Assembly: GCA_963169645.1 (NCBI GenBank)
Contig: CAUJCO010000012.1
Coordinates: 62,001 to 126,000, forward strand
DNA: 64,000 nt
DNA from: Bacteroidota bacterium
Lineage (GTDB): Bacteria > Bacteroidota > Bacteroidia > Chitinophagales > JADIYW01
Direction of reading: 5' to 3'
In this document: piece after piece, positions 4,757 through 64,000 of the stretch
Position numbering within the stretch: the first letter of the stretch is position 1
Layout of the letters: each line of letters begins with the position of its first letter
The notes under the pieces: model-generated
The model's database searches: none
Seen by the model: the letters and a program-made list of their open reading frames with translations, nothing else
What the model was told of the DNA's origin: nothing
Made by a program: the position numbers and the translations under genes

Positions 4757-6238
4757 ATGAGCAAGGAAATTACAAGCAGAGCAGAAAATTACTCGGAATG
4801 GTACAATGATTTAGTATTAAAAGGTGGTTTGGCAGATTATTCAGCCGTACGTGGTTGTATGGTGATAAAGCCATACGGTTTCACCCTTTGGGAAAACATG
4901 CGAGATGTGTTGGATAAAAAGTTTAAAGAAACCGGCCATGTGAATGCTTATTTTCCTTTGTTTGTTCCTAAAAGTTTATTTGAGGCAGAAGAAAAAAATG
5001 CGGAAGGTTTTGCAAAAGAATGTGCAGTAGTAACACATTATCGTTTAAAAACCAATCCGGATGAAGCCGGCAAGTTAATGGTAGATCCGGAAGCTAAATT
5101 AGAGGAAGAATTAGTCGTTCGTCCCACATCGGAAGCCATTATCTGGAATACATATAAAAAATGGATTCAATCGTACAGAGATTTGCCAATATTGGTAAAC
5201 CAATGGGCAAACGTAGTACGTTGGGAAATGAGAACACGTTTGTTTTTGAGAACTGCCGAGTTTTTATGGCAAGAAGGCCATACTGCACATGCCACCAAGC
5301 AAGAAGCCATTGCAGAAACAGTACAAATGATAAATGTATATGCTGATTTTGTAGAAAATTACATGGCATTGCCGGTAATTAAAGGTGTGAAGTCGGAGAG
5401 TGAACGATTTGCCGGTGCCGAAGATACCTATACTATCGAAGCGATGATGCAAGATGGCAAAGCATTACAATCCGGAACATCTCATTTCTTAGGTCAAAAT
5501 TTTGCCAAAGCATTTGAGGTAACATATAAAAATAAAGAAAACGAAGAAGAATACGTTTGGGCAACTTCTTGGGGCGTTTCTACTCGATTAATCGGTGCGT
5601 TAATAATGGCACATTCCGATGACGACGGTTTGGTAATTCCACCACGAATTGCACCGTATCAAGTGGTGATTATTCCATTTTTATCTAAAAATGAAGCGGA
5701 AACCAATAGCATGATAGCAAAGGCGAATGAACTGAAAGCCGACTTAGCTAAAATAGGCATACGTTCATTAGTAGATAGCGATGAAACGAAACGGCCTGGT
5801 TTTAAATTTGCAGAATATGAATTAAAAGGAATTCCATTGCGCATTGTTATTGGCCCAAGAGATTTAGCAAATGGAGTGGTGGAAATAGCACGAAGAGACA
5901 CCAAAGAAAAATCACAACTTTCTGTCACAAACATAGTTTCCGATATCGCAGCCTTATTAGAAAAAATTCAGCAAAATATGTACGACAAGGCAAAATCTTT
6001 CAGAGATGACAATATCACCAAAGTCGATGATTTTGAAACATTCCAAAAACTATTAGATGAAAAGCCGGGATTTATTTTGGCTCATTGGGATGGAACACCG
6101 GAAACGGAAGAAAAAATAAAAGAACTCACCAAAGCCACTATACGTTGTATCCCGTTGGATAATCCGCTGGAAGATGGAAAATGTATACTAACCGGAAATC
6201 CAAGTAAGCAAAGAGTATTATTTGCTCGCGCCTATTAA
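4757..6238 (+). CDS. proS: Prolyl-tRNA synthetase (archaeal/eukaryotic-like short form)
   Basis: 493 aa; class II motifs ([67 protein letters not shown]). Confidence 0.96.
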
Positions 6239-6240
6239 TA

Positions 6241-6276
6241 AAAAAAATCCCGATGCTTTGTATCGGGATTTTTTTT
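6241..6276 (+). terminator. Rho-independent terminator downstream of proS
   Basis: AAAAATCCCGAT-gctttgt-ATCGGGATTTTTTTT stem-loop with T tract. Confidence 0.85.
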
Positions 6277-6291
6277 GTACTATGCATCTAT

Positions 6292-6501
6292 TTATTTTAC
6301 AGAACAAGATACATCAGGATTACCTATTAATGATTCTGCTTCATCACAACTTTTTTTGGCATCACTTCTTTTTGTGTCCGGATAAATAGCTACTGTTGCA
6401 GAAGTTGTCCCATCTGTACATTCACACTTCCAATCTTTAACACAAGCAATTGAACTGAAGGAAATAATTGCAATAGCAATCCAAATCGTTTGTTTTTTCA
6501 T
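6292..6501 (-). CDS. Small secreted lipoprotein, unknown function
   Basis: 69 aa; signal peptide with lipobox-like SSIAC; Cys-containing mature part. Confidence 0.6.
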   Translation of the reverse strand: MKKQTIWIAIAIISFSSIACVKDWKCECTDGTTSATVAIYPDTKRSDAKKSCDEAESLIGNPDVSCSVK

Positions 6502-6646
6502 AATCTTTGATTTTGGTTAATACTTTCAATGTACAGAATTATTAGAAATATGTCAATAGCGCTTTGGACATTAATTGAACTTTATACAAAATCCTATTGT
6601 TTTAATCTTATAAAAAAAATATGTAGGTTTGCACAAAATTTCTAAA

Positions 6647-7114
6647 ATGTCAGTTATACAATTTAATTCTCTCAGTGAAGAACAAAAAGCAATATTGATT
6701 CAAGCTCCGGTATATATCGCATATTTAATTGGCGGTGCCGATAATAATTTTGATGAAAAAGAAGTAGAGATAGCAAAATATACCGTTAATTTACGTAAAA
6801 ACGTAGGCGATCCTTTCTTGTTCGATTATTATGCATTAGCTGCAGAGAATTTCAATGAGCAATTAGATGTATTGGTAGCTAAATATGAAAATCTAGAAGC
6901 AGCCGCAAGAACATCTTTGTTAATTGAGGAATTGCAAAAAGTAAATGATATTTTTCCACAAGTAGATAGCTTGTATGCCAAAACTTTATTGAATTCTTGG
7001 AAAAGTTTTGCACGCGAAGTAGCTGCTGCTTCCGGTGGTTTCTTAGGGATGCTAAGTGTATCTTACGAAGAAGAACATTTCTTGGATTTAGGAATGATTA
7101 ACCCAATTGATTAA
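6647..7114 (+). CDS. Small cytosolic protein, possibly TerB-like fold
   Basis: ORF called from TTG 6629, but ATG 6647 is likelier because a TAGGTTTG -7-like element (6624-6631) overlaps the upstream start; helical, GGADNNFDEKEVEIAKYTVNLRK. Confidence 0.6.
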   Translation: MSVIQFNSLSEEQKAILIQAPVYIAYLIGGADNNFDEKEVEIAKYTVNLRKNVGDPFLFDYYALAAENFNEQLDVLVAKYENLEAAARTSLLIEELQKVNDIFPQVDSLYAKTLLNSWKSFAREVAAASGGFLGMLSVSYEEEHFLDLGMINPID

Positions 7115-7605
7115 TGCCGGAAATCAGCGAGATAAAAGGTAAACCTATTCCACCACAGCTTCAAAAATTAGCTAAATTTACGAAGTTGATGGATAGCCAA
7201 TTTAAAATTCCCGGAACATCTATCACTTTTGGAATCGACCCAATTATTGGCTTAGTTCCTTACTTAGGAGACTTGGTAGATTATTGTATATCAGCCTATT
7301 TGATGATTGCCATGGTTAAAAATGGTGCAAGTGGACGTGCCGTGGCGAAAATGATTATTAATATCACTATCGATGGTATAGTTGGTTTAATACCATTCTT
7401 AGGTCGTATTTTTGATGTATTTTACAAAGCCAACCGAAGAAATTTGATTCTGGCGGTAGAACACTTTGAAGAAGGAAAACACCAAGGTAGTGCATGGCCT
7501 ATTGTAGTGCCTATTATAGGCATCTTACTTTTAATTTTTATTGCGATTAGTGTTATAGGTTATTATTTACTTAGTTATTTTTTCCAGTTACTTATTCCGG
7601 TTTAA
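7114..7605 (+). CDS. DUF4112-like membrane protein
   Basis: FGIDPIIGLVPYLGDLVDY and GLIPFLGRIFDVFYKANRRN repeats typical of DUF4112; C-terminal TM helix; TAATG overlap with upstream gene. Confidence 0.8.
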   Translation: MPEISEIKGKPIPPQLQKLAKFTKLMDSQFKIPGTSITFGIDPIIGLVPYLGDLVDYCISAYLMIAMVKNGASGRAVAKMIINITIDGIVGLIPFLGRIFDVFYKANRRNLILAVEHFEEGKHQGSAWPIVVPIIGILLLIFIAISVIGYYLLSYFFQLLIPV

Positions 7606-7713
7606 CTATTTTGTTGATATTAGTTTCTGCCGATAGTTTGCTGCAACTAAACAAATGAAATTGTAAAAATAGACAATCCTAACAATATTGTCTTTATTGA
7701 TTGTATAACTTAA

Positions 7714-7745
7714 AAGAAGGCTGCCGTAGGCAGCCTTCTTTCGTT
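7714..7745 (+). terminator. Rho-independent terminator
   Basis: AAGAAGGCTGCC-gta-GGCAGCCTTCTTTCGTTGTTTT perfect stem-loop. Confidence 0.8.
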
Positions 7746-7776
7746 GTTTTATTATGAATTAATATCATTTGAGTTT

Positions 7777-8790
7777 TTATTCATCATCATCATCATCATC
7801 GCTATCTTCAATATCGTCGTCATCATCGTCGTCGTCATCAAAATCGTCATCGTCATCGTCATCATCAAATCCGTATTCTAAATCATCTGCACTCTTAACT
7901 TTTCCTTTTGCTTTTCGTTTAGGTGAATCATCATCGTCGCTTTTGTCAAAATCATCAAAGTCACCACCAGCACCTACTGAAATCTCTTTTTCAGAAGGAC
8001 CAGCTACGTCTTGGAATAAATCGTCATCATCATAATCATCTACCATTTTTTGTAATTGTGTACTTACCTTTACTAAATAAGAGTATTCGCCTAATTCAAT
8101 TGGAACTGCGGATACTAATTCTTTTTTAGCATTCGTAAATTGAATGATACCACGATTGTATCCATGAGGATACTTTTCAGATAAGGCTTTTAAAACTTCA
8201 TCCGGTACATTTTTGTAATCTACAATTACTTTTTTAAATCCACCAGGTGGTGGTGTTGGCGGTGTTGGTTTAGTACCTGCTTTCGTTACAGATTTTGTAG
8301 TTTTGGATGTAACAGTTGTTTTCACTTCTTTCGGAACTGTTACAACTTTCTTTTCAGTAGCTTCTTTTGCTGTCTTTTCTTTTTCTACCATTTTTGGTTT
8401 ACTTGCTTGTTCTTGCTTGGTCACAGGTTTCGATGTTTTCTTGTTGTCAATGATTGGTTTGGCTTTAATAGGCACTGCTTTTTCAGCAGGTTTATTTATC
8501 GTCTTTTTAGTTGCGTCTTTTTTAGTTGGCTCTACTTTCTTTGTAGTAGGTTTTGGTTTATCTACAACTTTTTTTGGAGTTGATTTTGTCGCACTCGTTT
8601 TTGTCGCCACTACAGCTTTTTTTACAGCCGGTTTTGCTTTGGGTGCCGATTTCTCTTGCTTTGCTACAGCAGCTTTCTTAGCGGTAGCATTTGTTGCCTT
8701 AGAGGGTGTACTTTTCACCGCTTTTTTAGGCTCTTCTATTTTAGCTTTTTTTCCCACAGAAAGTATATTTTTAATTAGTTTCGAAATCAT
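7777..8790 (-). CDS. Histone-H1-like Lys/Ala-rich N terminus, small central domain and poly-Asp C-terminal tail
   Basis: 337 aa: K/A/P/T-rich first ~190 aa; FKKVIVDYKNVPDEVLKALSEKYPHGYNRGIIQFTNAKKELVSAVPIELGEYSYLVKVS core; D-rich tail. Confidence 0.75.
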   Translation of the reverse strand: MISKLIKNILSVGKKAKIEEPKKAVKSTPSKATNATAKKAAVAKQEKSAPKAKPAVKKAVVATKTSATKSTPKKVVDKPKPTTKKVEPTKKDATKKTINKPAEKAVPIKAKPIIDNKKTSKPVTKQEQASKPKMVEKEKTAKEATEKKVVTVPKEVKTTVTSKTTKSVTKAGTKPTPPTPPPGGFKKVIVDYKNVPDEVLKALSEKYPHGYNRGIIQFTNAKKELVSAVPIELGEYSYLVKVSTQLQKMVDDYDDDDLFQDVAGPSEKEISVGAGGDFDDFDKSDDDDSPKRKAKGKVKSADDLEYGFDDDDDDDDFDDDDDDDDDIEDSDDDDDDE

Positions 8791-8895
8791 GGGCTAATGT
8801 AAACTGAAATTGTCCAATTATGCAAGTTTTTTTTTAAAAATTATACTTTTTAAACCTTTTTTATTTTTTAGAGTCAAACTACAAAATAAGATTCC

Positions 8896-9228
8896 ATGAA
8901 AAATTTAACGTTATTATTATTAAGTGCACTTGTCTTAAATGTAGCAAGTTTAAGCGCTCGTCCAAAGGTTTACGTTCATCACAAACACCACGTACATTAT
9001 GTAAAAGTAAAACCAGCTAACCCAATAGTAGTGAATATAAAACCTGTATGTCCGAGCCCTAAACACGTATGGATTGAGGGTGATTGGATTTGGAGTTCTA
9101 TACAAAATCAATATGTGTATTCAGAAGGACGTTGGGTTATTCCAGCCGGAAGTGCGTCATGGGTTCCCGGACACTGGAAACATACAAAATATGGATGGAA
9201 TTGGATAGAAGGACATTGGAAAATTTGA
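8896..9228 (+). CDS. YXWGXW-like repeat secreted protein
   Basis: Signal peptide; WIEGDWIWSS, YVYSEGRWV, WVPGHWKHTKYGWNWIEGHWKI repeats. Confidence 0.75.
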   Translation: MKNLTLLLLSALVLNVASLSARPKVYVHHKHHVHYVKVKPANPIVVNIKPVCPSPKHVWIEGDWIWSSIQNQYVYSEGRWVIPAGSASWVPGHWKHTKYGWNWIEGHWKI

Positions 9229-9377
9229 TTATATTTTACAAAGGATAATTAGGTTAATGCTAATCTTTTTATAGTGCCTTATTCACAAATCAATCAATTA
9301 ATAACATTCCTTTAATTTGCATATTCTTATTTTTGGAGTTGAACAATAGTATTGTAAACTATTTTAAAACACACAAA

Positions 9378-10379
9378 ATGATAGAAACAGATATATGCAT
9401 TATTGGAGCCGGTCCTGTTGGATTGTTTGCCGTTTTTGAAGCTGGCTTATTGAAATTACGTTGCCACCTAGTAGATTATTTACCACAGCCGGGCGGACAA
9501 CTTTCTGAGATTTATCCAAAGAAACCTATCTATGATATTCCGGGCTATCCAACGGTAGGTGCTCAAGAATTAGTAGATAATTTAATGGAGCAAGCAAAAC
9601 CGTTTAGTCCAACTTTTACATTAGGAGAAAGAGTGGAAGCAATCGATAAATTGGAAGATGGCTCTTTTGAATTAACAACACACTTAGATACTAAAATTAA
9701 AGCTAAAATCATCTGTATCGCAGGTGGTTTAGGCGTTTTTGAGCCTCGTAAGCCGGCAATTGAAAACATCACCGCATTTGAAAAAAATGGGGTGGAATAT
9801 ATGGTGTTAGACCCGGAAAAATTCCGCAATAAGAAAATTATCATCGCCGGTGGTGGTGATAGTGCCTTGGATTGGACAATGTTCTTAGGAGATATAGCTG
9901 CTGAACTAACAATGGTACACCGAGGTGAGATGTTTAGAGGTGCTCCGGATAGCGTGGAGAAAGTGAAGAAAATGGCGGAAGAAGGTAAAATAAAAATGGC
10001 ATTAAATTCCAATGTTACATACTTACATGGTGATGGAAAATTAGAGCGTGTAACAATTACCAATAACGAAGGAACAGTTCAAGAAGTGGAGGCAGATTAT
10101 TTCTTAGCATTGTTTGGTTTAAGCCCAAAATTAGGACCTATTGCTAATTGGGGTTTAAATATTGAAAAAAATGCTATTAATGTAGATACCAGAGATTATT
10201 CTACTAATGTGAAAGGAATTTATGCTATTGGTGATATTAATAACTACGAAGGTAAATTGAAATTAATTTTATGCGGTTTCCACGAAGCAGCTATTATGTG
10301 TCATAGTGCAGCAGAATTGATTTCAGGAAAAAAACCTTCCTTAAAATATACAACAGTAAATGGCGTTAATGCCTTTTAA
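9378..10379 (+). CDS. Ferredoxin--NADP(+) reductase, thioredoxin-reductase-like
   Basis: IIGAGPVGLFAVFEAG FAD motif, PQPGGQLSEIYPKKPIYDIPG, IIIAGGGDSALDW NADP motif; ATG 9378 preferred over TTG 9333, which lies in a TATTTTTG -7-like element. Confidence 0.88.
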   Translation: MIETDICIIGAGPVGLFAVFEAGLLKLRCHLVDYLPQPGGQLSEIYPKKPIYDIPGYPTVGAQELVDNLMEQAKPFSPTFTLGERVEAIDKLEDGSFELTTHLDTKIKAKIICIAGGLGVFEPRKPAIENITAFEKNGVEYMVLDPEKFRNKKIIIAGGGDSALDWTMFLGDIAAELTMVHRGEMFRGAPDSVEKVKKMAEEGKIKMALNSNVTYLHGDGKLERVTITNNEGTVQEVEADYFLALFGLSPKLGPIANWGLNIEKNAINVDTRDYSTNVKGIYAIGDINNYEGKLKLILCGFHEAAIMCHSAAELISGKKPSLKYTTVNGVNAF

Positions 10380-10433
10380 TGTTATATCATACATTGATTA
10401 TAATTTACTTGATTATTACTCAAATTTTTTAAT

Positions 10434-10760
10434 TTGAACTCAATTACAATTCAAATACAACAAGATGACTTTTCGTTTACACCTTTGGAAATTCCCTTAG
10501 GTGTCGATTTATCTTTGATGGAAGTTCTAAAAGGAGAAGATCATCCAATTGACGCAGTTTGTGGCGGTATGGCTATTTGTGGAACTTGTCGCGTAGAAGT
10601 TTTAAATAAAGATGAAGTGGAACTGGATGGGATTGGTGATGCAGAAATGTGTATGCTTGATACATTACCATGTAATACCGGAAATTGTAGGTTGACTTGC
10701 CAAATTAGAATTTCAGAAAAAATTGATGGGTTGAAAATTTCTATTCCAAAAGAATTTTAG
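10434..10760 (+). CDS. 2Fe-2S ferredoxin
   Basis: CGGMAICGTC cluster motif plus C-terminal RLTCQI; TTG start. Confidence 0.88.
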   Translation: MNSITIQIQQDDFSFTPLEIPLGVDLSLMEVLKGEDHPIDAVCGGMAICGTCRVEVLNKDEVELDGIGDAEMCMLDTLPCNTGNCRLTCQIRISEKIDGLKISIPKEF

Positions 10761-10950
10761 TTTTTCCAAATAAATCCTGCTGTCTTCTAACGGTTTTTGG
10801 TTACACTTATGTTTGTAAATTACAATTGTTAACAACATTGCAATCTAATTTAGTTTCTTATACAGATATTTGCATTTAGTTTTGCACCGAAAACGTTTAC
10901 TTACCACCGTAAGAAGGTGTTTTTGTGCATTTAGATTAAATAAAATATTT

Positions 10951-13900
10951 ATGAGGTTATTTTTTGTATTGGTATTTATTTGTAGTTCTTTTGTTTCATT
11001 TGGACAAATTCAACATAAAGAAAAAGAGCATAAAGAAAAAGACACAACTAAGTTTATTGATAAAATTAAAGAAATTCCAAGTGTCATAGTTCGAAAATCA
11101 AATAAAGAGTTTACGATTAAAGGCAAAGTAATAGACAAAACAACCAACGAGCCACTTATTGGTGTAAATATCTTCGTAGAAACAGATAAATTAAGAGGAA
11201 CCGTTACCGATTTTGACGGTAATTATGAATTGAAAGCTAATGAAGGTGATGTCATTGTATTTACTTATATCGGATTAAAAGATTCCAAATTTACAGTTAC
11301 AGGCGACCAAACGTATGATCTAAACATGGAAGAAGAAGGCAACGTGATGGATGAAGTGGTTGTTTCTGTAGGTCGTAAAAAAGAAAAAGCCTTAGATGCT
11401 CCGGCATCCATCGTTTCTGTAGATGCATCAGCGATTAAATCTAAAGCCGGATTAGGTATTACAGAATATATCCGAAATGCATCCGGTGTGCAGGTAATGA
11501 AAACCGGCGTTGGCGGTGGTCAACCTTCGGTTCGTGGTTTTGCCGGTTATTTTAGTAGCGATGTAATGTCATTAACCGATACACGTGTAGCTAAATTGCC
11601 GAATACCGGTTTGAATATGTATCAAATGATGACAACAACAGATGCAGATATTGAACGAATTGAAATTTTAAAAGGACCGGCAGCCGCACTATATGGTCCA
11701 AATGCGAATCAAGGTGTAATTCATATCATCACCAAATCACCTTTAAAATATCAAGAAGTAAAATTTTGGACATCTGTTGGTGCACGTGTTCGTATCAAAG
11801 ATACGTTAGTTGATATTAATAGAGAAAATCCTCGTTTCGATTATAAAAAATTAAAAGATAGAGTATTGTTTACAGCCGGATTCTATGTATCAGATACGAT
11901 TCATACTAAAAATCCAAATGTAAAAACGGGTATTAAATTTTCAGGTCAATTTTTTACCGGTCATGATTGGAGATACAGTAGTTTAGGCGATCCGTATTCT
12001 GTGAAAATGTTTAAAGCGTCAAAAGATTCGATTTATTTTGAACGTCCAGATGAAACCATAGATCCCAACGGTCAAGGAACATTCGTGAATAGACCCCGAG
12101 ATGAAAAGATATTGAATGGACAAGTGGATGGTCGTTATGATATTCAAATAAAAGAAGATTTTAATATTGTGTTAGCAGGCGGTGTAAACGTAAGTAACGG
12201 CATAATTCCAAGCCCAATTGGTGCAATTCAAAATCAAGGTTGGACGTATTCATGGGCACAAATGCGTTTTACATGGAAAGATCTTTTCGTACAAGCATAT
12301 ATGAATAGCAATAACTCTAGAAAATCTTATTTTGTTCCCGTTGGCGGTCGCTATATCGATAAATCAAAAATGTATTCCGTACAAATTCAACATTCTTACT
12401 CTATCAAAAAACGCGTTGATTTAATTTATGGATTCGATGCTTTCTTTACAAGACCAAATACAGAAGGCTCACTCAATGGGCAATATGAAGATAAAGATGC
12501 AATTGATGAATATGGTGTTTACTTACAAGGTGAATATAAATTACATCCAAGATTTAGTACCATTGTTGCCACTCGATTAGATTATAATACAGCGGTTAAA
12601 AAATTATTGTTCTCTCCAAAAGTAGCCATAGTTTACAAACCGGGTACAGGTCATAATTTACGTTTTACATTTAATAGAGCATTTAAAAATCCTGCATCAG
12701 CAGCTTACTTTGTGGATGTAAAACAAGCAGATATTCCACTCGGAATAGAAGTAAGACAAGTTGGTACGCCGTACTCCGGATTTAATTACAGCTTCAATGC
12801 CAATCCAAATTATGGAGGCCAAGTATTGCCTCAGTTCTTATCGCCGTATGGCACATCCGGACAATTCCATGATGTGGGTGATTTATCGTTTAACTCAACC
12901 GGTTGGGAAGGCATATTATCCGCAATTAGAAGTCAATTTGGCTCACAAGCTAATATCGATGCCACTTCACCGATTTTACCGCTTATGAATGAAATCGTAA
13001 ATTCAATTATTCCACAAACTATTCCGAGTGATATACCTCAAGTGGTAAAGAATTTAAATACTGGAAAACAAGAGTTTGAGCCAAATAACGACCATTGGAT
13101 GCAAACAAAAAATATTGGCAAATTAAAACCAACTATGACATATACCTATGAATTAGGCTACAAAGGTGTAATTGGGAAAATGTTTGGTTTACAAGTAGAT
13201 GTATATCGTACAGATTATAAAGATTACTTGGCTCCGGTGCAATTATTAACGCCGGCTGTAATGTTCGACGATGTGAAAATGATGGAATATTTAGCTCCAA
13301 GAATTGAGCAAAACTTCAACAATTTAAATCCACTAATTAAAATTGCCATGAATGAGTTTTTGGATAAAAGCGAAAAATTTGGTGGTAATAATAATGGAAC
13401 TGCCAGTGATGAATTCGTTTCTTTAATAACGCGTGCAGTGAAAAACTTGCCTATTGGTGTTGTTACACCGTATGAAGCAGGTGGTCCGAATATGATATTG
13501 GTAACGCGTAATGTAGGTAATTTGCATGTTTATGGTGTCGATTTCAATTCCAATTTATACTTGCCTTATGGCATCACGTTGAATGCAAACTATTCTTTTG
13601 TAAGTAAGGATTCTGTGGTGGTAAAAGATTCACCATTAGGTTATGTTTCCTTGAATTCACCAAAGCACAGAGTGAATGTTGGTGTGAATTATGCAATCGA
13701 TAAAATTGGTTTAAATTTAGGCGTTAAGTTTAATTGGAGTGCAGGATTTCCTGTGTTGTCCGGTAATTTTGTCGGTCACCAAAAGGCCACACACGACATG
13801 GATTTTGACATTTCATACACTCCAAAATTCTTAAAAGACCATTTGAATGTAACAGTTACATTGTCTAATTTATACAATAAAAAACAACAGTATTTCGTTG

Positions 13901-53845: not shown

Positions 53846-53971
53846 AATACATTTATATGAGTTTGGAAGCATTAAAAAATACCAATACACGAAAGGTGGG
53901 CATTTGCCCACCTTTCGATTCAGAAACATTGTAACACAAAATAGGGTAATTCTGATTCTTGTTTTTTCTAA

Positions 53972-55741
53972 TTATTGATACATGCTATTGATAATTGCTT
54001 TATAGCGTTCATTAATAATTTTTCGCTTGGGTTTCATTGTTGGCGTGAGTTCTCCATTTTCAACTGTCCATTCTTCCGGCAATAACGCGAATTTTTTTAT
54101 CTGTTCCCAATTACCAAAAAATGTATTGTATTTTTTTATTTCTTGTTGTATTAGTTGGTTTACTTGTTCCTGTTGAATGAGCTCCAAATTATTTTTAAAG
54201 GATAGTTGATGTTGTTTTGCCCATTCATCTAATTGCATAAAGGACGGCACCACTAAAGCAGCAATAAATTTTTTTTCATCATCGCCTACTACCATAATTT
54301 GCTCGATAAATGGGCTTTCTTTCATTTTGTTTTCTATCACTTGTGGTGCGATGTATTTTCCGCCGGCAGTTTTAAAGAGTTCTTTTTTTCTATCCGTTAT
54401 TTTTAAAAATTGATGACCATTTTGTGATATCCAAGTGCCGATATCACCTGTATGAAACCAACCCTCTTTATCTATTGCTTCGGCCGTTAATTCCGGTTGG
54501 TTGTAATAGCCACGCATAATGTTATCACCTTTTGCCAGTATTTCACCATCTTCGGCAAATTTTATTTGTACACCCGGAATTGGCATGCCCACTGTACCAA
54601 TACATCTTTCTGTTTCTTCTACGCGATTACAACACAATACCGGAGACGTTTCTGTCAGTCCATACCCTTCTAATACTTGAATGCCGGCTGCTGTAAAAAG
54701 TGTAATTAATCGCGGTTGCATGGCTGCTGCGCCGGTAATGATAAATTGCACATTTCCGCCTAAGGCTTCTTTCCATTTACTAAAAATTAGTTTTCGTGCT
54801 AAATTCAATTGTTGTTGGTACCACCAATTTTTCTTTTCTCCAATTTTATATTGAGCTCCAACATCCATTGCCCAGAAAAATAATTTCTTTTTTATGCCGG
54901 TTAATGCATTGCCTTTCGCGATGATTTTATCATATACTTTCTCAAGCATTCTTGGAACGGTAGTAAAACAAAATGGTTTTACATCTAATAAATTTTCTCC
55001 GATTGTTTCTAAACTTTCGCTGTAATGTACATGAATACCAAATGATAAATATCCAAAAAAAACCATTCGTTCAAAGCTATGACAAAGTGGTAGAAAACTC
55101 AATGCTTTTTCTCCTTCTCCGAATGGAACTATTTCTTTTATACTTTTAATATTACTTACAATATTTTTGTGCGAGAGCATAACACCTTTTGGGTTGCCCG
55201 TTGTTCCGGAAGTATAGATAATAGTGGCTAAGTCGTCTTCTTTTATTGTATTTTTGATGATATTTAATTGACCTTCATCTACTACAGTAGCTGCAATGGC
55301 TGATTGGAATTCTTGTGCTTGTTCAATTTTTTCAAAGGTATATATATCTTTTAATGCACTTACTTTACCCAACAATGGTTTTACTTTTTGGTAGATGCTT
55401 TTATCACCTACAAAAGCATATTTTATAGCTGCATCATTGAAGATATATTCGTAATCCTTTTCAGAAATGGTTGGATACATGGGTACTACAATTACGCCAA
55501 TTTGTTGTGCTCCTAAATCTACAAAATTCCATTCCGGTCGATTCGTAGAAATAAGTGCAATGGTGTCACCTGATTTTAATCCTAATTGTAATAAAAACTG
55601 ACTTACCTTATTAGCAATATTTTGCACTTCTAAAAAGGAATAATGTCGCCATTGATTCTTTTCTTTTGCTGCGATAAATGGACTATTAGGTCGTTTCTCT
55701 ACATAATAATTTAGATAATCAAAAAGACGAGCGGCTTCCAT
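53972..55741 (-). CDS. Long-chain acyl-CoA synthetase (AMP-binding)
   Basis: TIIYTSGTTGNPKGVMLSHKN; LEGYGLTETSPVLCCN; GWFHTGDIG; ITDRKKELFKTAGGKYIAPQVIENK. Confidence 0.94.
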   Translation of the reverse strand: MEAARLFDYLNYYVEKRPNSPFIAAKEKNQWRHYSFLEVQNIANKVSQFLLQLGLKSGDTIALISTNRPEWNFVDLGAQQIGVIVVPMYPTISEKDYEYIFNDAAIKYAFVGDKSIYQKVKPLLGKVSALKDIYTFEKIEQAQEFQSAIAATVVDEGQLNIIKNTIKEDDLATIIYTSGTTGNPKGVMLSHKNIVSNIKSIKEIVPFGEGEKALSFLPLCHSFERMVFFGYLSFGIHVHYSESLETIGENLLDVKPFCFTTVPRMLEKVYDKIIAKGNALTGIKKKLFFWAMDVGAQYKIGEKKNWWYQQQLNLARKLIFSKWKEALGGNVQFIITGAAAMQPRLITLFTAAGIQVLEGYGLTETSPVLCCNRVEETERCIGTVGMPIPGVQIKFAEDGEILAKGDNIMRGYYNQPELTAEAIDKEGWFHTGDIGTWISQNGHQFLKITDRKKELFKTAGGKYIAPQVIENKMKESPFIEQIMVVGDDEKKFIAALVVPSFMQLDEWAKQHQLSFKNNLELIQQEQVNQLIQQEIKKYNTFFGNWEQIKKFALLPEEWTVENGELTPTMKPKRKIINERYKAIINSMYQ

Positions 55742-55750
55742 GTTCTGATA

Positions 55751-56302
55751 TTATTTAATGAGTTTACTAATAAACTTAAAGGCGTCTGTTCCGGCTTTTT
55801 CAATCAATTGAAATAAAATCATTTCTGTTGATACGATGAATGCTCCGGATTGTTTCATTCTTTCTAATGCGATTTGTTTGTTTTCTGCAGTTCTGGACGA
55901 AACAGCATCTGCTACGACATGCACTTCTAAGCCGGTATCCATTGCTTCTAATGCCGTTTTTAAAACACAGATATGCGATTCAACACCGCCAATAATTAAG
56001 GATTTGATATGGTGTTTTTGTAAGGTTTCAATTACTTGTTGTGATTGTAGGCAACTGAAACAAATTTTTTCTATTACTTGCGTGTTTTCCGGTATTTCAA
56101 TATCTCTACAAGTGTGTCCTAATCCATTAGGATATTGTTCTGTAATGATTGTTGGAATATTTAATATTTGAGCTGTTTTTAAAAGACGATTTGTATTTAA
56201 AAATACTTGCTCTTTATCTTGCACCACCGGCATTAGCTTTTCTTGAATATCGATGATTAATAAGGCTGTTGATGCTGCTTGTATGAGTCCGCGTGATTTC
56301 AT
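55751..56302 (-). CDS. Isochorismatase-like cysteine hydrolase (ISOC1/2-like)
   Basis: LLIIDIQEKLMPVV (Asp), TEQYPNGLGHT, GGVESHICVLKTALEAMDTGLEVHVVADAVSSR (Cys). Confidence 0.88.
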   Translation of the reverse strand: MKSRGLIQAASTALLIIDIQEKLMPVVQDKEQVFLNTNRLLKTAQILNIPTIITEQYPNGLGHTCRDIEIPENTQVIEKICFSCLQSQQVIETLQKHHIKSLIIGGVESHICVLKTALEAMDTGLEVHVVADAVSSRTAENKQIALERMKQSGAFIVSTEMILFQLIEKAGTDAFKFISKLIK

Positions 56303-56313
56303 TTTCTTATATT

Positions 56314-58038
56314 TTACATAGAAATAGAACCTTTTCTAAATTCACTTTTCCCGATGATGGCATTGATGATAAATGGAATTCCTTTTCTGCTTTTTGCTTT
56401 TGCATCTTTTGCCGCTTTTTCCATTGCAGGAATATCTTCCACTCGTTCGCCATCGGCGCCAAATGCTTTTCCTATCATTTCATAGTTAGAGTGTGCTAAT
56501 GTAATGGCACAATCACTGTTTAAAAATTCTACTTGATCGCGTGCTATTTGTGCCCAGCAGGCATCGTTTCCGATAACAGAAATCACCGGCAGTTTATGTC
56601 GTACAAATGTGTCGTATTCTACTAAGCTGTAACCGGAACTTCCATCGCCATAGATAATCCAAATATCTTTTTCCGGAAATACGACTTTTGCTCCTAATGC
56701 AAATCCGGCACCAACACCTAAAGTGCCAAATACACCCGGATCTAACCAAGATAAAGGTGCTCTCGGTTTTAAGGTGTAGGCTGCAGTTGCAACGAAATCG
56801 CCACCATCCGCCACTAATACTGTATTATCATCTAAAATTTTATCTAATGCTCTAAACAATTCAATAGGATTCATTCCATTAAGTTTATCTTTAGCTTGTG
56901 CGTCAATTGCAGCTTCACGTTGGTTATCACGTTCGCGTAGTTTTTGCACCCAATCTTTTGTTTCTGCTTGATATTTAGAAGCCAATTCAATCAAGAAATT
57001 TTGTGGATCTGCATGAATAGCAATGGTTGGTTTTTTATTTTTAAATAAATCTTCTGTACTACGATTGATAGAAACAAATGGACGATGGCCAATATGATTG
57101 CCATATTCTAATCGGAAATCATTGGGTACGCCGGCTAAAATAATTAAGTCAGCTTCCTTTATGGCTTCTTTCCTTTTATGTCGCATTTGTAAATTGGCAT
57201 CTTTTCCTACTAAACCACGTGCCATACCACTCAAATACATGGGTATATTTAATTTTGTAACGGCAGCGGCTAATTCATTTACTTTTTGAGGCAACATTAA
57301 TGCACCACTACCAATAATTAACAATGGATTTTTTGCTTTCTGTAGTGCTGTTTTTACTTGCTCAATATCTGATGCGGTATGTGTTGGAATCGTGAATGGA
57401 AGTGGTTGGTGAAATTGTATATTTTCTTTTCCTTCAAATAATTTTTTTGCATGTCGGTTAATATACCATTGCACCACGCGTTCTTGCATATTGCGAGGCG
57501 GAACATCTTTACTTTTTGCTCCATACCATTCGCGTACTAATTCTTCATTGTAGAGTGTATCAATCGGACATTCAATAAATACTGGACCTGGAACACCTTC
57601 TTGTGCTACGGCAAAGGCTCTTTCAAAAATGGGAACAATTTCCTTTACTTTCGTAATACGTGCAGCCCATTTTACCACCGGTTTCATGAGGCTCATTTGG
57701 TCGATGTCTTGCAAAGAACCTCGACCTTTTAAAATGGTTGCAGCACCACCACCTAATACTATCATCGGCGATTGTGCCATATACGCATTTTTTACAGCAG
57801 TGATAGTGTTGGTTAAGCCCGGACCGGCTGTAACAGCTGCTACACCGGGTACACCTGTTAAACGTGAAACGGCATCTGCAGCGAATACAGCATTCACTTC
57901 ATGACGTGTATCTATTACACGAATTCCAATTTTTTCTGCACTCACAAAAATAGGTGAGATGTGTCCACCACAGAGTGTAAATAAATATTTTACACCATGG
58001 TTTTGTAATACTTTTGCGATGATTTCTCCGCCGTTCAT
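56314..58038 (-). CDS. TPP-dependent lyase, acetolactate-synthase-like (ILVBL/HACL2-like)
   Basis: [79 protein letters not shown] motif. Confidence 0.9.
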
Positions 58039-58113
58039 AAATAAAATTTTAAGTTGTTATTGTTGCGTTTGTTTGTTTCTCTTTAATCTAAATTTAAAAC
58101 TATTTTTTTATTT

Positions 58114-58129
58114 ACGACAAATTTGTCGT
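58114..58129. promoter_or_regulatory. Perfect 16-bp palindrome ACGACAAATTTGTCGT, candidate operator of the TPP lyase operon
   Basis: Self-complementary sequence 76-91 nt upstream of the start codon at 58038. Confidence 0.5.
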
Positions 58130-60992: not shown

Positions 60993-63900
60993 ATGTGGAA
61001 GATGAAGGTATGTTTACGATATATAGTTATTTTATTTTTATGGTGTAATATACACACTGTAAATGCACAAACTGGAAATAATTGTGCAAATGCAATTAAC
61101 ATTTGTAACAATCAATTAGCAGAGCAATTGACGGACGGGTTTGGTACACAAGATTGTCCAACAGGAGGTTGCGGTTGCTTAATGGCCGGTGAACATAATT
61201 CAAGATGGTTTCGATTAGTGATTCAGACCGGTGGTGTATTAGAATTTACATTAGAGCCGTATAATGGTTCTGCAGATTATGATTTTTCGGTTTGGAATCA
61301 AGGTGTTGGTGGTTCTTGTCCTACTGCAGCACAATTGAGTGCACCGGATAGATGTAATTATGCTGCACCTCAATCACCAACAGGAATTAGAGGAACCGGA
61401 AATGGCAATTCAAACAGTGCATCAGGCAACTTGTTTTCTAATAATATGACAGTAAGTGCTGGACAGGTTATTTATATTTTAGTAGATAATTATGATGGTA
61501 CAAACGTAGGCTTTAGATTGGATTTTTTTGGAGGTGCACCGGGTTCCGGAAAAGGTACTACAGCAACATTTAATTGTTCAAGTGTAAATACATGCAGTAC
61601 ATGTTCCGATCCGGATTGCAACACCTATCGTTTTGATTCTCCAACAGATTATTCTTTTGATGAAACAGCAGCAAATGGTGCTTGTCATTCTAACTTTGCA
61701 ACCAATACAAAAGTGGCAACTGTATGCGGTACTTTTACTGTTCCTGCACCTTTTACTACAGTAGAATTCCCGTTAGATGCCGGATTAGAAATTACGGCCT
61801 CATCCGGTAATACCAATGCTTGTTTAAATACAGCATTGTCCAATATTTCCTATCAAGTTTGGGGAACATGCGGAACACCCTTATCTCCATTGCCCGGTAC
61901 CGGAATTTACAACGGGTTAAACAATGTAACTACATATAAAGTTTGCAAAACGGTAAATGTTTCGTCCGGTTCTGCAGATTGTTATATAAGTAGAATATGT
62001 TTGCCTTATTGGACGATGATTCAAAATGATGATATTTGTGGTGCTATTCCTATAACTGTTAATGGAGCTGCAGTATCCGGTTCAAATGCAGGTGCTTCTT
62101 CCGGAATGGATGCAGGATGTACTGCGTACCAAGATGTTTGGTATAGTTTTGTGGCACCGGCATCCGGAAGAGTCCAAATTAATGTTTTACCAGATGCAAC
62201 ATCAGACGTAAAGGTAAGCCTAATTGGACCATCAGCCGGATTAAGTGGCGGTATGAATGATTGTAATCAACCATGTGATGAAATGACACAAATAGCAGCA
62301 GGTTGTAATGATTATGCAGGTGTGAATGGTGCTGAAAGATTATTTTCGTTTGTAATTCCTGGTCAAACATATTATGTATGGATTAGTGGAACAGCCGCAA
62401 GGCCTACTGCCAACTTTACAGTTCAAGTTGTAGAAAATATTACAGCATCGGCACTACCTTCACCCGGCACAGATTTAGTTGGAAATCCTGACACAAAGCC
62501 ATCTAATGATGAATGTGCAAACGCAATTGATTTAAATCCGATGTGTAATGCAATATCCGGAACAACTATTGGTGCAACAGCTATTTGTACCGATCCGGAT
62601 CCTCAATTTGTTGCAGCAGTTACATTAGAAAATGATGTTTGGTATAAATGGACCGCTCCAGCAAATAATGGCAATGCACAAGTAACCTTAGAAGTAACCG
62701 GAGTGAGTTGCACGAACGGTGCCGGTACAAGTGCTACAGGAATTCAATTCGGTATTTTTAGAGGCTCGTGTGCTTCCTTAATTCCGGTTCAAAATGGAAC
62801 TACCACCGTAACTTTTACACCAATTGCAAATGCTACTTATTATTTTGTTATTGATGGAAATGCCGGAGCACAATGTAATTTCTCCATAAATATCAAACGA
62901 CCAACCATAACAGGATATACTTGTAATACCGGAAATTATTGTACCGGAAGTCCCATAAATTCTACTTTTAATTATTCGTATGCAGGATCTAATCCGGGAT
63001 ATCGTTGGGCATATTGTAAATCCAATACTTGGGGTTCTCCTTGCGCTATTGATATTGATAATCCAGCTACCTATTCTATCTATAATCCGGCTGTTGGATT
63101 ACCTAATCCCGGTTGTACGCCTGCAACATATACTTTTGTAGGTTATATATTAGCTGACAACGGCGCTACAACAATAGCACCAGGCTATCCGAGACCACAA
63201 CCGAATTCAGCAAATTGTGTTCGTCAAACGCCACCATGTACATTTAATATATATCCGGATATCCGAACTACAGTAACTACCACAGCAACTAATTGTAGTC
63301 AGGTAGTAACACCGAATGTATCGTGTTCTCCTGCAGCTCCTATATTAATTTCTGGAAATACCAATCAAACGGCATCACCGGGAACAAATGGAACATTTAC
63401 TCCGGTAACAGTAACCTGGAATGCACCATATGCAGCAACAGCACCGGCATTATGTAACTCTTATACTATTCAAAATAATTATGCTTGCCCTGGTCCTTCC
63501 GGAGCAAATACTTGTAGTACTGCACCACAATTAACGATAGGTGCTGCAGCCATTACAAGTAATAATGTTGTTAGTTACACAAGTGCTGAATATATTTATG
63601 CCTGTGGTAATGGAAATGATGGAAGTGGCGTATGGTTTACGTTTGTTGCACCGAGTTCTGGTAATGTCAATATTAATCTTACAAATGTTGGGTCGGGAAA
63701 TAATTTAGATGCAATGCTTTATTTATTTGACAGCCGATTAGCACAATATGACGATTGCTTAACTGATTTTTATTTTGAGTCGGATATATGTGCTTCTTGC
63801 AATGATTTAAATTCAAGTTGTGAGTTAGATGATCAATTAATATATTGTTCAGATGTAGGTGGTACAAATGGTAATGAATCCATACAAGCTCGTTATTTAA

Positions 63901-64000
63901 ATCCCGGAGAAACGTATTATATAATGGTAGATGGTTATTATGATCCATCGAATGTAAGTATTGCAAATGGCAATTTCTCTATAAGAGTGGTTGATGCAGG
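60993..64000 (+). CDS. Large Cys-rich secreted protein with repeated PPC-like beta-sandwich modules (partial, runs off window)
   Basis: ATG 60993: MWKMKVCLRYIVILFLWCNIHTVNAQTGNNCANAINICNNQ...; frame spot-checked open near 62160, 63540 and 63960; repeated WYSFVAP/WYKWTAP/WFTFVAP and YYVWI/YYFVI/YYIMVDG modules. Confidence 0.88.
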   Translation, partial: MWKMKVCLRYIVILFLWCNIHTVNAQTGNNCANAINICNNQLAEQLTDGFGTQDCPTGGCGCLMAGEHNSRWFRLVIQTGGVLEFTLEPYNGSADYDFSVWNQGVGGSCPTAAQLSAPDRCNYAAPQSPTGIRGTGNGNSNSASGNLFSNNMTVSAGQVIYILVDNYDGTNVGFRLDFFGGAPGSGKGTTATFNCSSVNTCSTCSDPDCNTYRFDSPTDYSFDETAANGACHSNFATNTKVATVCGTFTVPAPFTTVEFPLDAGLEITASSGNTNACLNTALSNISYQVWGTCGTPLSPLPGTGIYNGLNNVTTYKVCKTVNVSSGSADCYISRICLPYWTMIQNDDICGAIPITVNGAAVSGSNAGASSGMDAGCTAYQDVWYSFVAPASGRVQINVLPDATSDVKVSLIGPSAGLSGGMNDCNQPCDEMTQIAAGCNDYAGVNGAERLFSFVIPGQTYYVWISGTAARPTANFTVQVVENITASALPSPGTDLVGNPDTKPSNDECANAIDLNPMCNAISGTTIGATAICTDPDPQFVAAVTLENDVWYKWTAPANNGNAQVTLEVTGVSCTNGAGTSATGIQFGIFRGSCASLIPVQNGTTTVTFTPIANATYYFVIDGNAGAQCNFSINIKRPTITGYTCNTGNYCTGSPINSTFNYSYAGSNPGYRWAYCKSNTWGSPCAIDIDNPATYSIYNPAVGLPNPGCTPATYTFVGYILADNGATTIAPGYPRPQPNSANCVRQTPPCTFNIYPDIRTTVTTTATNCSQVVTPNVSCSPAAPILISGNTNQTASPGTNGTFTPVTVTWNAPYAATAPALCNSYTIQNNYACPGPSGANTCSTAPQLTIGAAAITSNNVVSYTSAEYIYACGNGNDGSGVWFTFVAPSSGNVNINLTNVGSGNNLDAMLYLFDSRLAQYDDCLTDFYFESDICASCNDLNSSCELDDQLIYCSDVGGTNGNESIQARYLNPGETYYIMVDGYYDPSNVSIANGNFSIRVVDA

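Follow-up and report, generated by a model that had tools for sequence, protein, structure and literature searches.

Organization of the locus

The window analyzed here, i.e. the whole stretch of 64,000 nucleotides from a Bacteroidota genome, contains three closely spaced genes on the minus strand for a ThDP-dependent lyase, an ISOC-like hydrolase and an acyl-CoA synthetase. Do they serve one pathway, and which one? In our reading, to which we give a probability of about 0.6, the operon forms a cassette devoted to the cleavage of 2-hydroxyacyl-CoA (alpha-oxidation), with a bacterial HACL2-type lyase at its center and a hydrolase that most likely clears formyl-CoA.

The first gene of the operon (56314-58038, minus strand, 574 aa) was assigned to the HACL2/ILVBL-type lyases from the ORF list, Pfam, a phylogenetic tree and active-site residues. 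The second (55751-56302, minus strand, 183 aa) encodes an ISOC1/ISOC2-type cysteine hydrolase according to the ORF list, Pfam and structure matches, and the third (53972-55741, minus strand, 589 aa) encodes a long-chain-type acyl-CoA synthetase (FadD). The intergenic gaps are 11 and 9 nt, while 252 nt lie between the lyase gene and the upstream kinase gene. Downstream of fadD there is a probable intrinsic terminator on the minus strand (approximate coordinates 53885-53916), a perfect hairpin GAAAGGTGGGC-AAAT-GCCCACCTTTC followed by a T-run, with a folding energy of -23 kcal/mol (z = -5.2). Judging by the upstream gap and the hairpin with its T-run, the three genes seem to form one full transcription unit. 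A 16-bp perfect palindrome, ACGACAAATTTGTCGT, was found at 58113-58128 (no strand), some 75 bp before the start of the lyase gene. It is a candidate operator, possibly of a local regulator, and near-copies at a comparable upstream distance were detected only in the two closest relatives. Elsewhere in the window, a very large secreted-looking ORF of more than 1000 aa (60993-63998), of the repetitive adhesin-like type, runs past the window edge.

The ORFs were checked again, and the original prediction had the minus-strand trio, its coordinates, both gaps and the cited motifs right. The third gene, which it had called an acyl-CoA synthetase, carries the AMP-binding and AMP-binding_C_3 domains of Pfam.

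The lyase groups with HACL2

The lyase is an intact TPP enzyme with the three domains TPP_enzyme_N, M and C. Human HACL2 (ILVBL, UniProt A1L0T0) does not appear among the PDB matches of the lyase; for the tree and alignments we used a presumptive human HACL2 sequence, whose Q161, I554 and E557 match the published positions (PMC8760513, PMC13327070). The window lyase is 47.6% identical to this presumptive sequence over 584 aa, whereas the acetolactate synthase (ALS) of the same genome reaches 24%. A maximum-likelihood tree was built from 39 proteins, with no HACL1 or RuHACL among them. In it, the presumptive human HACL2 and 25 bacterial proteins, including the window lyase, form a clade with a long stem and support of 100/100 (bootstrap/SH-aLRT). 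This clade is set apart from ALS, Gcl, Oxc, AcHACL and the PRK05858-like proteins, and its bacterial members come from Bacteroidota, Myxococcota, Acidobacteriota and Pseudomonadota.

The active site was compared with that of AcHACL by alignment. Residues H44, E65, T88, L127, Q128, R273 and R362 of AcHACL correspond to H25, E46, T69, L108, Q109, R288 and R373 of the lyase, E46 being the catalytic Glu. Both Q109 (human Q161) and R288, the counterpart of the CoA-binding R273, are conserved throughout the HACL2 clade, and this Arg is absent from ALS, Gcl and PoxB. The two hallmarks of actinobacterial HACL, Glu493 and a C-terminal lid, are missing from the lyase: the position of the catalytic E493 of AcHACL is occupied by Ile497 (I554 in human HACL2), and the protein has a short tail, ending in FRKGSISM and aligned to human FRDGSIAV. 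Three positions past I497 there is an acidic residue, Asp500 in the lyase and Glu in human HACL2 (E557) and in some bacterial members. In HACL2, the acidic residue one helix turn past the Ile has been singled out, and short C-termini have been linked to long-chain substrates (PMC8760513). Since there is no large C-terminal lid, the substrates are probably not restricted to C5. The active-site pattern and the tail fit a putative long-chain 2-hydroxyacyl-CoA lyase.

The genome (2.70 Mb, rated 100% complete) was queried family by family, and a second TPP enzyme was found on another contig. This one passes the NCBIfam model TIGR00118 (acetolactate synthase large subunit) with 710 bits and adjoins ilvC, so that the genome has another enzyme for making branched-chain amino acids. 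The window lyase stays under the curated cut-offs of the best-scoring NCBIfam models, i.e. TIGR00118 (245 bits, cut-off 538), the actinobacterial HACL model NF058623 (316 bits, cut-off 600) and PRK05858 (407 bits, cut-off 587). The last of these, named 'acetolactate synthase', is nevertheless the closest model by score, and one could argue that the window enzyme acts mainly as a carboligase or an acetolactate synthase (acetoin/dimethylglyoxal chemistry) and just resembles HACL2. ILVBL itself has been reported to make dimethylglyoxal from pyruvate (PMC11237006), and I497 recalls the Val/Ile of ALS and Gcl. We regard this explanation as very improbable, since the PRK05858 score is far under its cut-off, the CoA-binding Arg is retained while ALS signatures are gone, a real ALS is encoded elsewhere in the genome, and the operon partner is an acyl-CoA synthetase. 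The mycobacterial protein P66947 is presumably an IlvG of the PRK05858 type. Its listing as a putative HACL (PMC13327070) also argues against a carboligase.

As originally suggested, the TPP protein does not read as a biosynthetic acetolactate synthase; that role was rejected on the grounds of the tree, the residues and the presence of a separate ilv operon. The proposed kinship with ILVBL/HACL2 was upheld by the 100/100 clade with the presumptive human sequence and by the active-site residues, and in the phylogeny, which did not include HACL1, the lyase fell outside ALS, Oxc and actinobacterial HACL. By sequence, the lyase belongs with human ILVBL/HACL2 and not with acetolactate synthase.

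The ISOC-like hydrolase and FadD

The hydrolase has a Pfam Isochorismatase domain and a TEQYPxGLG motif. Its matches to ISOC-type structures (E 1e-34 to 5e-36; 1e-34 for C. elegans 2b34) are far ahead of those to YcaC (3e-11) or to nicotinamidases, and the nicotinamidase and biuret amidohydrolase models match it weakly. It is 38% identical to a sequence that we take to be human ISOC2. The structure matches and this comparison agree with the kinship to ISOC1/ISOC2 that had been proposed for it. The predicted triad D18-K79-C112 is invariant in 30/30 sequences. ISOC1 is a peroxisomal human protein of unknown function (PMC3583843).

FadD has a YTSGTTG motif at residue 176 and the C-terminal Lys at residue 570. 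It is a dedicated extra paralogue, as two further copies were found in the genome at E<=1e-150.

Distribution, linkage and transfer

We searched 299 genomes of the same order and found the lyase in 35, ISOC in 33 and the operon-type FadD in 29, the last being defined by E <= 1.5e-230, which corresponds to roughly 60% identity and above. All three genes occur in 28 genomes, and the lyase is found in each of the 29 genomes with the operon-type FadD. The lyase occurs without ISOC in just 4 genomes, and ISOC without the lyase in 2. The Fisher test for co-occurrence gave p values of about 1e-33 to 1e-35, uncorrected for kinship among the 299 genomes. Within six genera, lyase and ISOC are jointly present or jointly absent, while two genera are discordant. 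The three genes lie side by side in many genomes amid otherwise unrelated genes; where the lyase is located elsewhere, ISOC and FadD are still adjacent (7 genomes), and where FadD is elsewhere, lyase and ISOC are (6 genomes). This recurrence amid unrelated flanks, together with the co-occurrence, places the linkage far from chance. The linkage is therefore not a peculiarity of the source strain, and the three genes as a functional unit are well supported. As they come and go together across related bacteria, they probably belong to one pathway, which offers a route to finding the function of ISOC.

In all three gene trees, genomes G403, G489 and G528 group together, usually with G484, although three families are spanned, pointing to transfer of the trio as a set. 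The lyase is rare in the phylum, being found in 1 of 396 genomes sampled across Bacteroidota. The function is thus accessory, and the module is no general trait of Bacteroidota. No further conserved neighbors of the cassette were found beyond isolated instances, among them a gene for a 144-aa protein resembling Rrf2-type regulators. ISOC orthologues are absent from most of the non-Bacteroidota lyase holders searched; in general, then, the lyase does not depend on ISOC for its function. Within the order, one lyase holder without ISOC keeps only the lyase-FadD pair (G652), and three genomes of one family (G577, G573 and G607) have a divergent lyase (51-55%) alone. These four genomes provide natural tests of the ISOC requirement.

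Proposed pathway and sources of the substrate

In the proposed pathway, FadD would activate a long-chain 2-hydroxy acid by forming the CoA thioester, and the ThDP lyase would cut the C1-C2 bond to yield formyl-CoA and a fatty aldehyde one carbon shorter. ISOC would most likely turn formyl-CoA into formate and CoA, drawing the reversible lyase reaction forward. The genome encodes two ALDH3-like dehydrogenases outside the operon, one of which would then oxidize the aldehyde. The chemistry of the lyase and its preference for long chains are those expected from its family. The reaction of ISOC and the natural substrate of the cassette are suggested more tentatively.

Neither a 2-hydroxylase nor an aldehyde dehydrogenase dedicated to the cassette is linked to it. 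The original prediction had named sphingolipids as a plausible source of substrate. Such lipids made by the cell itself are unsupported here: no serine palmitoyltransferase was found in the genome, where the sole close relative of the family scores as BioF. A P450 2-hydroxylase was likewise rejected as the source of 2-hydroxy acids, as the genome has no P450 hydroxylase. Four FA_hydroxylase (PF04116) proteins, none linked to the operon, may supply 2-hydroxy acids, and one isolated protein of the PhyH family may also do so. An external origin of the substrate is possible.

There are 8 PhyH matches in the genome, most of them in one tandem array on contig C12, outside the window (5645-12056). 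It comprises six genes for PhyH-family dioxygenases, including a two-domain one, next to genes for two radical-SAM/SPASM-like proteins, two UbiA-like membrane proteins and a methyltransferase-like protein. The array resembles a cluster for biosynthesis or modification of a kind not yet described. As a source of 2-hydroxy acids it was set aside, since with these radical-SAM and UbiA-like neighbors it seems unrelated.

The three genes could also be ordered differently. ISOC might act upstream, as an amidase on an acyl-amide lipid; the (2-hydroxy)fatty acid so released would pass to FadD and then to the lyase, and the operon would serve the salvage of hydroxy-acyl-amide lipids. The lipid would have to be a non-sphingolipid amide, given that the genome has no serine palmitoyltransferase. 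Many characterized cysteine hydrolases of the isochorismatase fold are amidases, and the weak matches to the nicotinamidase and biuret amidohydrolase models point the same way, as does the ISOC-FadD adjacency that outlasts the lyase in 7 genomes. However, the lyase-ISOC adjacency likewise outlasts FadD, and the pockets of this fold usually accept small substrates. We consider an upstream amidase unlikely. A biosynthetic rather than catabolic role, in which hydroxy acids are shortened by one carbon to provide odd-chain/iso fatty acids or fatty aldehydes of membrane lipids, seems to us distinctly improbable. Bacteroidota have unusual branched chains, which would suit it, and odd-chain fatty acid production is ascribed to mammalian HACL2 in a title cited in PMC12655727. 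Nevertheless, the sporadic, transfer-prone distribution of the genes suits an accessory catabolic or niche role better than core membrane synthesis.

Significance of the operon

HACL2 and its reaction are already known, while no description of a bacterial operon joining an HACL2-type lyase with an ISOC-type hydrolase was found in the openly licensed papers searched. HACL2-type lyases are hereby extended to a defined bacterial operon, and a soluble bacterial counterpart of the membrane-bound animal enzyme becomes available as a model. For proteins of the ISOC1/ISOC2 type, the operon is also the first genetic context to emerge from this analysis, and the co-occurrence gives a specific, assayable prediction. 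A broader proposal, which we hold to be doubtful, is that alpha-oxidation has a missing enzyme, one that clears formyl-CoA or is obligate in some other way, and that ISOC1/ISOC2-type hydrolases fill this place. If true, the bacterial tie to an HACL2-type lyase would show what a conserved peroxisomal human protein does. Removal of formyl-CoA by a hydrolase would also matter for one-carbon carboligation, for which HACL enzymes are wanted (PMC8760513).

Comparison with known systems

The closest known system is vertebrate ILVBL, i.e. HACL2 (A1L0T0), the 2-hydroxyacyl-CoA lyase of alpha-oxidation in the ER. It shares with the window lyase the Gln, the CoA-binding Arg, the Ile pattern and the short C-terminus, and the 48% identity to the presumptive human sequence spans the whole catalytic part. 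The bacterial lyase differs in starting at the catalytic domain, without the N-terminal extension of about 50 residues that bears the membrane anchor, in having Asp500 for Glu557, and in its operon with ISOC and FadD. The bacterial ISOC has the TEQYPxGLG motif, the D-K-C triad and a C-terminal LIK in common with human ISOC1/ISOC2 and C. elegans 2b34. It differs in having no peroxisome signal and in its genetic tie to the lyase and FadD.

The remaining ThDP enzymes are more distant. AcHACL, the 2-hydroxyisobutyryl-CoA lyase of Actinomycetospora (PDB 7PT1-4), is of the same fold family but lies outside the HACL2 clade; its E493 is Ile in the lyase, which also lacks the C-terminal lid that limits AcHACL to C5 substrates. 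Oxc and HACL1/RuHACL are ThDP enzymes with the formyl-CoA-releasing chemistry proposed for the lyase. Oxc shares the CoA-binding Arg, but has Tyr/Glu at the positions of AcHACL L127/Q128 and branches apart. IlvB acetolactate synthase has the ThDP fold and Q109 in common with the lyase, while ALS proteins are 24-26% identical to the presumptive human HACL2.
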